The translations under genes were made by a program, and so were the position numbers. Below the pieces are notes generated by a model. That model was not told where the DNA came from and searched no databases. It saw only the letters and a program-made list of their open reading frames with translations. Positions 6,828-52,556 of a stretch of 64,000 nucleotides of DNA are shown here, one piece after another. The stretch is from Peptococcaceae bacterium BRH_c8a (GTDB lineage Bacteria; Bacillota; Desulfotomaculia; Desulfotomaculales; Desulfallaceae). The DNA is taken from positions 62,001 to 126,000 of the forward strand of contig LADP01000003.1 in the NCBI GenBank assembly GCA_000961575.1, given 5' to 3'. The first letter of the stretch is position 1; each line of letters begins with the position of its first letter.

Positions 6828-8063
6828 TTATGCGCAGCAGTTGCAATTGGTTGCTTCGGCCAGGGCAAATCTACGGTGCAGTACGTTCATGGCTTTTTCA
6901 GCTTCACCGTTCTTGATGATGCAGGAAATTTTGATGTCGGAGGTGGAGATCATATCGATATTAATCTCTTCGTCGGCCAGCGCGCCAAAAGTCATGGCGG
7001 CCACCCCGGGGTTGCCGTTCATGCCCGCACCCACCACGGAAACCATGGCTACATGGGCATTATGCGTATAACCGGTGGCTCCCACCACTTTAATAATTTC
7101 TTCTATAGTTTCCAGGGATTTGCGTAGTTCGTCCTGGCTGACGGTAAAAGAAATATCATTTACGCCGTCACGCATGGAACTTTGCACGATCATATCCACG
7201 CTAATATTACGGTCGGCCAACATTTTAAATACCATATAGGCCACGCCGGGTTGATCCGGTACACCAAAAATGCCTAATTTAGCCACGTTTTTGTTGCAGG
7301 TGACACCGGTGACAATCAGGTTTTTTTCCATATCGCATTCCTCCTTGACAATGGTTCCGGGATTATCGTTAAAACTGCACCGTACATGCAGCGGGATATT
7401 GTAAATTTTGGCGCATTCCACTGCTCTGGGATGCAGTACCGCCGCTCCCAGATGGGCCAGTTCCAACATTTCGTCATAGGTAATGGAATCTAGCTTGCGG
7501 GCGTCGGGTACCACTCGCGGATCCGTGGTGTATACGCCGTCCACGTCGGTATATATCTCACACATGTCGGCCTTCACTGCTGCAGCCAGCGCCACCGCGG
7601 TGGTGTCTGATCCACCCCGGCCCAGGGTGGTAATGTCGCCGCTGTCACAAAGTCCCTGGAAACCGGCCACCACTATTATTTTACCTGCCTCAAGCTCGGC
7701 AATTAACCTGGAGTTGTCGATATCAGTAATCCGTGCCCTGGAATGTATGCTCTCAGTTTTAATCCCCGCCTGGGGGCCGGTAAGGGAGACCACGTCAGGT
7801 CCCAAACTCTTGATAGCAATAGCCAGCAGGGCAATAGATACCTGTTCACCGGTGGACATGAGCATGTCCATTTCCCGGGGGGACGGGTTGTTGGTGATCT
7901 CCCGGGCCAGCTTAATCAGATCATCGGTGGTATCGCCCATAGCTGATACCACGACCATCATTTGATGCCCCTCACGATACTTGTTGACCACCCGCCTGGC
8001 CACGTTTTTTATGCGGCCTGCATCACCCACGGATGTGCCGCCGTACTTTTGGACAATCAACAT
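6828..8063 (-). CDS. lysC: Aspartate kinase with C-terminal ACT domains
   Basis: IVQKYGGTSVGDAGRIKNVARRV; ACT repeats at C-terminus. Confidence 0.95.
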   Translation of the reverse strand: MLIVQKYGGTSVGDAGRIKNVARRVVNKYREGHQMMVVVSAMGDTTDDLIKLAREITNNPSPREMDMLMSTGEQVSIALLAIAIKSLGPDVVSLTGPQAGIKTESIHSRARITDIDNSRLIAELEAGKIIVVAGFQGLCDSGDITTLGRGGSDTTAVALAAAVKADMCEIYTDVDGVYTTDPRVVPDARKLDSITYDEMLELAHLGAAVLHPRAVECAKIYNIPLHVRCSFNDNPGTIVKEECDMEKNLIVTGVTCNKNVAKLGIFGVPDQPGVAYMVFKMLADRNISVDMIVQSSMRDGVNDISFTVSQDELRKSLETIEEIIKVVGATGYTHNAHVAMVSVVGAGMNGNPGVAAMTFGALADEEINIDMISTSDIKISCIIKNGEAEKAMNVLHRRFALAEATNCNCCA

Positions 8064-44175: not shown

Positions 44176-44357
44176 CTCTTCTCGCACTCCTCTCTAAGCT
44201 AAACTGTTTTTAAAAACTCATAAAACTATTTTAGACTAAGAGGTTATTTTGCGCAAGGAAAGTTAGTTATTTTTCCCCTTAAAAACTAAATTTCGTATAG
44301 TCCCCACTGAAAAACGACATAACAAACCCCTCACCACAAGATTGGTCTAACTAGTTT

Positions 44358-44586
44358 CCCCTGAAAAACTAAGCATCACTGGGGTTTGGTGTTAATCGGA
44401 GGGTTACGTAGGAGCTTAAATCAAAGAGTGAGAGAGTCCGAGGAAAAGCGCCGGTGCATGTCTGAGCGCCCGCAGGGCGCGAGTTCTCCGGCGCCCGAGG
44501 ACGAACGAGCTCGTTCAAGCATAACGGCGAGTAGTTACCCGGTATTAACACCAAACCCCTTACCAAGACTTTTTCAGGAGACACTA
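44358..44586. repeat. Composite palindromic element copy 2, core-containing
   Basis: Same palindromic arms as copy 1 but with a 131-bp segment (44408-44538) at the hairpin tip; repeated inverted near 51801-52042. Confidence 0.9.
44408..44538 (+). ncRNA. Putative structured RNA-like core of the composite element
   Basis: Nested pairing gcgccgg[...gcgcccgcagggcgc...]ccggcgc and gaacgagctcgttc; conserved in copy 3 with about a dozen substitutions by eye. Confidence 0.4.
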
Positions 44587-45558
44587 ACTGATTTTTTCTT
44601 CATTAGCCAACGCATTGCTCCACCGGCCACAGCGATCACCCCAGCGCGCGATAACCCGGCCGCCCTCCTGAATTTCCACCACTTCACATATGTTGGGACA
44701 GCCGTCACAGGCAAACCCGCCGCTGCAAAAATCGCTATCGGCAACCTGAAAACCTCTGAAGCCGGTCTTTCTGCGGTTGGTGCTTTCCCGGGCCAGCATA
44801 GCTGCGCCAAGGGCACCCATAACGTTGAAATAAGGAGGCACAATTACTTCAATCTCGAGCGCCTTTTCGAAGGCCCATTTCATCCCGGCGTTGGCCGCCA
44901 CACCGCCCTGGAATACCACCGGAGCCAGGATTTCTTTGCCTTTGCCGACATTATTCATATAATTACGTACCAGCGCTTCGCACAGCCCGGCCAGGATGTC
45001 GGGTATGTTATAGCCCATCTGCTGTTTGTGGATCATGTCACTTTCGGCAAACACGGCGCAACGTCCGGCAATCTGTACCGGCACTTTGGACTGCAGCGCC
45101 TGTGGCCCAAAGTCCTCAATATCCAGGTTCAGCCGTGAGGCCTGCTGATCCAAAAATGATCCCGTGCCTGCGGCACACACTGTGTTCATGGCGAAATCGG
45201 ACACCACCCCGTTACGCAGGATAATAATTTTAGAATCCTGCCCGCCAATCTCCAGGATGGTTTGCACACCAGGCACCACATTGGAGGCAGCTATGGCATG
45301 GGTGGTAATCTCATTTTTGACCACATCAGCACCGGTCATTACGCCGGCCAGATGCCGTCCGCTGCCAGTGGTGCCCACGCCGGCCACCTTGGTGCCGGGC
45401 GGCAGCGCTAAATGCATTAGTTTAAGCCCTTTTTGCACCACTTCAATGGGCTTACCGCTGGTGCGCATGTAAATACTGTGCTTTATGGTGCCGTCTTCAC
45501 CGGTGGCCACCAGGTTAGTGCTCACCGAGCCAACGTCAATACCAAGGTATACATACAT
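44584..45558 (-). CDS. Acyl-CoA dehydratase activase (BadF/BadG/BcrA/BcrD ATPase family)
   Basis: YLGIDVGSVSTNLV, GVGTTGSGRHLAG, EIGGQDSKII, AAGTGSFLDQQASRL. Confidence 0.92.
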   Translation of the reverse strand: MYVYLGIDVGSVSTNLVATGEDGTIKHSIYMRTSGKPIEVVQKGLKLMHLALPPGTKVAGVGTTGSGRHLAGVMTGADVVKNEITTHAIAASNVVPGVQTILEIGGQDSKIIILRNGVVSDFAMNTVCAAGTGSFLDQQASRLNLDIEDFGPQALQSKVPVQIAGRCAVFAESDMIHKQQMGYNIPDILAGLCEALVRNYMNNVGKGKEILAPVVFQGGVAANAGMKWAFEKALEIEVIVPPYFNVMGALGAAMLARESTNRRKTGFRGFQVADSDFCSGGFACDGCPNICEVVEIQEGGRVIARWGDRCGRWSNALANEEKIS

Positions 45559-51315: not shown

Positions 51316-51756
51316 CTATTGTTCCGGCACTGCCGCCCGACGGGTCGCTCCCGCCCTCCTACTCATTTTTACCCGGGTACCTTGGCCCGGTTCGGACTGC
51401 ACATTGAACTTGTCCATAAATGACTGCATGAATGAAAAACCCAGTCCCATTCGTTCCGGATCTGTGGAGAATGCTGGCTCCAGCGCTTTTTCAATATCCT
51501 CAATGCCTATGCCCCGGTCTATTACCACCAGTTCCATGTATTCATCGGCAATGCTGATTTCCAGGCGGACTACCTGGTCGGGGTTGTTCTCGTAACCATG
51601 AATGATGGCGTTGGACACCGCTTCGGATACAGCTACCTTGATTTCTTCAAGGTCCGGCAGGGTGAAGTCAACCTGGGACACGAAGGTAGCCACCGTCACC
51701 CGGGCAAAGGCCACGTTTTCAGCCCGGCTGGAAAATTCAAGCACCGCTTTGTTCAT
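51316..51756 (-). CDS. spoIIAB: Anti-sigma F factor
   Basis: HATPase fold: EAVSNAIIHGYENN, VIDRGIGIEDIEKALEPAFSTDPERMGLGFSFMQSFMDKF. Confidence 0.96.
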   Translation of the reverse strand: MNKAVLEFSSRAENVAFARVTVATFVSQVDFTLPDLEEIKVAVSEAVSNAIIHGYENNPDQVVRLEISIADEYMELVVIDRGIGIEDIEKALEPAFSTDPERMGLGFSFMQSFMDKFNVQSEPGQGTRVKMSRRAGATRRAAVPEQ

Positions 51757-51800: not shown

Positions 51801-52042
51801 CAGTTAGTGTTTCCTGGGTAAGTCTGGGAGGGGTTTGGTGTTATCTCCAGGATGCAACTCGCCATTACACTTGAACGAGCCCGTTCGCCTTCGGGCGCCG
51901 GAGAACTCGCACCCTGCGGGCGCTCAGACATGCACCGGCGCTTTTCCTCAAGCTCTCTCGCTCTTTGAACTAAGCTCCTACGCATCCTTCCAATAACACC
52001 AAACCCCGCTAAGGCTCGTTTTTAAGAGAGAACTAGCTGATT
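51801..52042. repeat. Composite palindromic element copy 3 (minus orientation relative to copy 2), between spoIIAA and spoIIAB
   Basis: Inner arms 51830-51844/51993-52007 (ggggtttggtgttat / ataacaccaaacccc) around a ~125-bp core homologous to copy 2. Confidence 0.9.
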
Positions 52043-52371
52043 TTGCTGATGACGTGTTCTACAGACGGGTGTTCTTCCATCAGTGTTAACAAACCGGACA
52101 GTTCCAGAACCTTTCTAACCTGGGGGGCGGCGCCGGTCAAAAAAACTCTGCCTCCCGCCGCAGTAACCTTTTTATACCGGCCCAAAATTACTCCCAGACC
52201 GGAACTGTCCACAAAACTGACCCCGGCCAGGTCAAATACAATATTAAAAACTTCGTTTTGCTGCAACGCACGATCCACGTCACGGCGCAGGGCATCAGTA
52301 ATGCTCATATCAATTTCGCCCATCGGTACAACCACCAGGCAGTTATTTTCTTTTTTAATTGTATAGTTCAT
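52033..52371 (-). CDS. spoIIAA: Anti-sigma F factor antagonist (STAS domain)
   Basis: FDLAGVSFVDSSGLGVILGRYKKVTAAGGRVFLTG. Confidence 0.95.
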   Translation of the reverse strand: MNYTIKKENNCLVVVPMGEIDMSITDALRRDVDRALQQNEVFNIVFDLAGVSFVDSSGLGVILGRYKKVTAAGGRVFLTGAAPQVRKVLELSGLLTLMEEHPSVEHVISKIS

Positions 52372-52509
52372 GCTTGTCACCCCGGTTAACAATAAATTCA
52401 ATTACATGGCCCATAAGTTCTACGTGCCGTTATTTGTTAGATTCTACCATATATTTACTTGGTAATCAAACATGTAACTTTATGATTAAAAGCATCCTGC
52501 CAAAGAAAT

Positions 52510-52537
52510 GGGGTCAGACTCTTTTGGAGCCTGACCC
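52510..52537. repeat. Short inverted repeat, GGGGTCAG type
   Basis: gggtcagactc-ttttg-gagcctgaccc. Confidence 0.8.
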
Positions 52538-52556
52538 TGTAGGGTTGAAGCCCCGG

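Follow-up and report, generated by a model that had tools for sequence, protein, structure and literature searches.

A probable MITE with ISNCY-type ends and a widely conserved structured core between spoIIAA and spoIIAB of Peptococcaceae bacterium BRH_c8a

The insertion between spoIIAA and spoIIAB

In the 64,000-nt stretch of Peptococcaceae bacterium BRH_c8a DNA analysed here (the window), the genes for the anti-anti-sigma factor SpoIIAA and the anti-sigma F factor SpoIIAB both lie on the minus strand. The spoIIAA reading frame is listed as 52033-52401 and spoIIAB occupies 51316-51756; by the window sequence and its list of open reading frames, about 276 nt separate the end of the first gene (52033) from the start of the second (51756). 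The true start of SpoIIAA is likely the ATG of MNYTIKKEN, slightly downstream of 52401. Comparison with homologues indicates that the ...KIS C-terminus is native: those of the congener G001 and of G004 share this end and have no MITE, which rules out the element described below as its source. The ribosome-binding site of spoIIAB, GAAGGAGG, is retained and matches that of G001, and the element leaves both coding regions untouched. Past the 5' end of spoIIAA, at 52508-52545, there is a short hairpin (GGGGTCAGACTC...GAGCCTGACCC), possibly another dispersed repeat.

The initial annotation had placed a palindrome with an enclosed core in this gap, and its coordinates were right: a near-palindromic shell surrounds a structured core. 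An inverted-repeat search finds the shell as a 35-nt inverted repeat, 77% complementary, around 126 nt. Its inner 15 bp, GGGGTTTGGTGTTAT (51830-51844, plus strand) and ATAACACCAAACCCC (51993-52007, plus strand), pair perfectly, and the core between them is GC-rich. When copies from the same genome are aligned with their flanks, the element is seen to continue past these inner arms to termini of the form G(T/A)NTCNCCTGAAAAA, which are terminal inverted repeats at either end of family copies. The ends of better-preserved copies place the spoIIA copy at 51807-52033 (minus strand, 227 bp); the only open reading frames listed within it are short and overlap it by chance. Outside it lie the hexamers CAGTTA (51801-51806) and TAGCTG (52034-52039), which, in the light of the 6-bp TANNTA duplications of the family, we read as a worn target duplication. 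The two are equal at three of six bases, and the terminal repeats are worn as well; the worn hexamers suggest that the insertion is an old event. The spoIIAA stop codon overlaps the element. It is contained in the hexamer 52034-52039 together with base 52033, the TA of the TAG belonging to the duplication and the G being the last base of the element.

The conserved core occupies 51869-51970 on the minus strand and runs in the direction of the spoIIA transcript. It scores 112.7 bits with model R2 (E 5.4e-30 in the window); the copy is itself one of the sequences in the R2 alignment. RNA folding of the copy gives -93 kcal/mol in the sense direction (z -2.9) and -87 kcal/mol in antisense (z -3.25), with 0 of 200 shuffles as good in either case, while folding as DNA is less distinctive (z -2.1).

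Copies and target duplications

BLAST finds the repeat at 24 places in the bacterium's own genome, 11 of them full length and about a dozen partial; because it is dispersed in this way, the repeat at spoIIA is not due to chance. Full copies in the window measure 227-231 bp. The second of these lies at 44354-44584 (plus strand, core 44419-44520), between the hexamers TAACTA (44348-44353) and TAACTG (44585-44590), and sits on the stop codon of the reading frame 44584-45558. The homology to 44408-44538 reported in the initial annotation is real and reaches over all of this copy (86% identity over a 181-bp query), and the idea of a composite element with an RNA-like core common to both places is borne out by the genome search and by the core alignments discussed below. 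A third copy (2175-2276, ends approximate) keeps arms and ends with the core deleted, and such shortened, core-less copies are common in the family. A candidate further core at 7146-7229 scored 16.7 bits (E 0.046) and was treated as noise.

Several arrangements of copies may be recorded here. In G001 four copies stand in tandem with a 229-bp period and 93% matches (L245, C45, 4209-5156). A second small repeat (TTGGGGACATTCCCGAC...GTGTCCCCTGACCGCT) occurs within or beside the core in G000 and G001 (L012, L016, L248), and in three genomes a third (GACTTTCACCGCAACGGCTA...TAGCCGTTGCCGTA or a similar one) breaks into the core at much the same position (L013/L022 in G000, C33; L042 in G008; L059 in G004).

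When the ends detected in four genomes were paired, 17 elements emerged, 63-291 bp long; 12 of these are flanked by hexamers that form exact TANNTA direct repeats. The central dinucleotide, which was free in the search pattern, is equal in 16 of the 17, against 3.5 expected on permutation. These clear 6-bp duplications speak against a palindrome of the REP/RAYT type (Y1 transposase, no target duplication). Plasmid and phage collections yielded no match.

An ISNCY insertion sequence with matching ends

Pairs of such ends were used to look for an autonomous partner; within the element's own family they yielded mini-elements only. In G021 one pair of ends spans 3.7 kb and was considered for this role, but it encloses ordinary transporter-type genes and was rejected. 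An insertion sequence with matching ends was traced via contig ends of G045 and then G035, the latter a genome from another family of the same order. In G035 this insertion sequence is 1657 bp long and present in four copies, with ends GATTCTGCTGAAAAACTC/GATTCTGCTGAAAAAAGC and duplications of TAGGTA or TATCTA, and its 464-aa transposase belongs to the ISNCY family (NCBIfam NF033593: 498.7 bits, with the cut-off at 325). Its end equals the MITE end at 17 of 21 bases, a level that only the MITE end at 44354 reaches among the 127,958 21-mers of the window. Having like ends and duplications to those around an ISNCY insertion sequence, the element is therefore a MITE with ISNCY-type ends. Since the genome to which the window belongs contains no intact relative of the G035 ISNCY transposase, we infer mobilisation in trans, perhaps long past.

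Three of the G035 copies, at C1:1900882-1902538 (L318), 1904399-1906055 (L319) and 1912111-1913767 (L320), have one or both ends within a CRISPR repeat (...CCCTCGTAGGTA followed directly by the insertion sequence), and a TANNTA target is present in this repeat. As the insertion sequence interrupts the CRISPR repeat published for Candidatus Desulforudis audaxviator MP104C (PMC5217627), G035 is probably that strain; the paper refers to Ca. Desulforudis solely in connection with CRISPR motifs.

History of the insertion

Alignment of the junction across relatives agrees with the earlier proposal that the spacer is an insertion, as in the closest relative, G001, whose SpoIIAB is 93% identical, the junction measures 49 nt and lacks the MITE. 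Another congener, G002, has a 43-bp core-less element at the same junction. The G001 junction keeps GTTCCCTC past the stop codon, and for this reason it may have arisen by deletion rather than never having been occupied. Across the family the gap is between 37 and about 180 nt long. In G007 (L265), G008 (L253) and G010 (L261) it holds other, unrelated repeat-like sequence, and from these differing inserts the junction seems tolerant of insertions. Among the 13 copies with long flanks, six coincide exactly with the stop codon of a flanking reading frame, compared with 6 of 67 non-coding TANNTA sites in the window, although few copies entered this test, which was set up after the first cases had been seen.

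The reading we favour, to which we give a probability of roughly 0.87, is that the spoIIA spacer represents a MITE copy with ISNCY-type ends, now worn, which was mobilised in trans and is near-neutral at this place. On insertion, six bases of a TANNTA-like target at the spoIIAA stop codon would have been duplicated, and the stop codon would have been re-formed from the duplication and the terminal G of the MITE, leaving both proteins therefore intact. Inside its ISNCY-type ends the MITE has complementary arms and a conserved folded core of about 100 nt; this module is common to differently armed elements of other lineages and probably acts in folded form as a single strand, whether of DNA or of RNA. 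Against this reading stand the worn ends and hexamers of the spoIIA copy, the absence of an intact partner transposase from this genome, the possible scar in G001 and the occurrence of the matching insertion sequence in another family of the order. Near-neutrality at spoIIA is the simplest reading, and the core's role is probably in the element's own life cycle and not in spoIIA.

Regulation of spoIIA

The initial annotation had proposed that hairpin and core could affect termination, processing or translational coupling and thereby the SpoIIAA:SpoIIAB ratio, which would make the element a co-opted cis-regulator. A strong hairpin does separate spoIIAA from spoIIAB, the core is in the sense direction, and an element occupies the junction in two of the three congeners examined. 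The ribosome-binding site and the coding regions, however, are unaltered, G001 has no element, and both the length and the content of the gap vary freely in the family. The main palindrome (52007-51830, minus strand) was considered as an intrinsic terminator and rejected, as it is followed by TCCCAGACTT, with no T-tract; a terminator scan found only a small stem at 52018-52000 with the tail GTGTTATTGG. Elsewhere, copies occupy many unrelated gaps in either orientation and with no gene preference: between co-directional genes 28 are sense and 16 antisense, a weak bias, with a further 10 between divergent and 7 between convergent genes. Because copies occur in all of these arrangements, it is unlikely that they serve the adjoining mRNAs in a fixed way. 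With the genes and the spoIIAB ribosome-binding site kept, the T-tract absent and the gap variable, a changed SpoIIAA:SpoIIAB ratio is not supported, and we regard a regulatory role of the element at spoIIA as very improbable.

Distribution and structure of the core

The MITE's core was modelled twice, as R1 from alignment A1 (22 copies) and as R2 from alignment A2 (52 copies). R1 detects it in 33 of the 114 genomes of the class, and R2 in 37 of the 399 genomes of the phylum. An exact consensus pattern matched 96 stretches among GTDB species genomes, some of them in MAGs with the names Desulfatitalea, Desulfobacterales, Deltaproteobacteria and Acidobacteria; CP070652.1, a Deltaproteobacteria entry labelled as a chromosome, contains 31 matches. 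The core is thus common to at least three bacterial phyla, with Desulfobacterota and Acidobacteria genomes among its carriers. Contamination of MAGs might explain single matches in other phyla, but not 31 matches on one chromosome record or arms that are lineage-specific.

The paired positions of the core covary. In A2, an alignment fitted to its model, both sides have changed in 20 of 23 pairs, and the share of cells that pair is 91.5%, compared with 31-47% when the partner is slid. A1 was not fitted, although its structure was drawn by eye from its own sequences; there 11 of 23 pairs have changed on both sides and 87.6% of cells pair. A separate alignment of 12 Desulfobacterota copies has 72 predicted pairs, 33 of them with double changes. 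What stays constant in the core is, for the most part, sequence that is unpaired or mismatched, namely GAGGAWAAG, TGTYTGAG, CGAGTT and recurrent G-A mismatches. The apex occurs in two versions, ATGTCTGAGCG and TAGACTTTCG, both found in more than one genus on copies that are otherwise lineage-specific (loci L004, L005, L009 and L011 in G000 and L065 in G004).

Rfam gave no match at gathering score for the window and related copies, and we found no description in the open-access literature searched of the core, of ISDol1 MITEs or of Desulfotomaculum/Pelotomaculum repeats like these. The core family thus seems to be undescribed. MITEs are a known kind of element, and the spoIIA copy is one; what appears to be new is the cross-phylum structured core inside it. 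We propose tentatively, at close to even odds, that it belongs to an undescribed class of structured mobile hairpins, extending from Desulfotomaculia to Desulfobacterota and Acidobacteria genomes, in which a folded module of about 100 nt, of single-stranded DNA or of RNA, is combined with interchangeable arms that change fast yet always stay complementary and, in one lineage, with ISNCY ends.

RNA or DNA

The arms that enclose the core vary from lineage to lineage, and in the Desulfobacterota even between copies of one genome. Nonetheless 65 of 84 copies have arms that pair with their own partner above the 99% shuffle level, compared with 36 of 995 cross-pairings. Double changes of the arms comprise 43 transversions and 28 transitions, and only 3% of pairs are G-U. 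Such substitutions hint at pairing at the DNA level or correction by template switching, rather than at stepwise compensation in RNA.

That core and arms together form a folded DNA hairpin or cruciform, for instance a recognition site, with arms corrected by template switching and no function as RNA, is a reasonable possibility, if one that we place below even odds. It accommodates arms that vary from copy to copy yet pair with their own partner, the prevalence of transversions and scarcity of G-U pairs, and the near-indifference of orientation to the genes. Template switching alone, however, leaves the constancy of the core's unpaired motifs across phyla unexplained; the test by substitution type is indirect and has no calibrated control, and it is as DNA that the spoIIA copy folds less distinctively. 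The constancy of those unpaired motifs and the covarying helices around them, held over several phyla, would on the other hand suit a functional structured RNA used by element or host, in the manner of a bacterial SINE or a small-RNA gene on transposon ends, and the slight excess of sense copies points the same way. We consider this rather unlikely, given the few G-U pairs, the copies found antisense or between divergent genes, and the lack of an Rfam family.

Relation to known elements and meaning

The core described here spans phyla, in contrast to the bcr1 repeat of Bacillus cereus, whose host range is narrow and whose duplications are 5 bp long. Likened by description, the present element resembles bcr1 in its multiple copies, intergenic location, size of 150-200 bp, conserved secondary structure and traits of mobility. 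Further stem-loop repeat families have been documented (PMC2267715). Chunjie, a prokaryotic MITE of Geobacter uraniireducens, was found inside an operon (reviewed in PMC10969869), as is the spoIIA element; with MITEs of that type ours also shares its non-coding nature, a length below 300 bp, multiple copies, inverted-repeat ends, target duplications and many shortened copies. It differs from them in its ISNCY-type ends and TANNTA duplications, and in an interior that, beyond the ends alone, is conserved far outside the family. With the ISNCY insertion sequences (NF033593) it has in common the ends, at 17 of 21 bases, and the 6-bp TANNTA duplications, but the MITE has no transposase gene and the insertion sequence no such core.

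MITEs usually keep their ends and lose their interior. Here it is the interior that is conserved across phyla, while the arms change freely and yet stay paired, which suggests that the folded module, absent from Rfam, performs some task as DNA or as RNA. The frequent location of surviving copies on stop codons offers a way for a mobile element to enter operons with the genes unbroken. As a natural insertion in the well-studied spoIIA operon, the element also makes the tolerance of spoIIAA-spoIIAB spacing testable.
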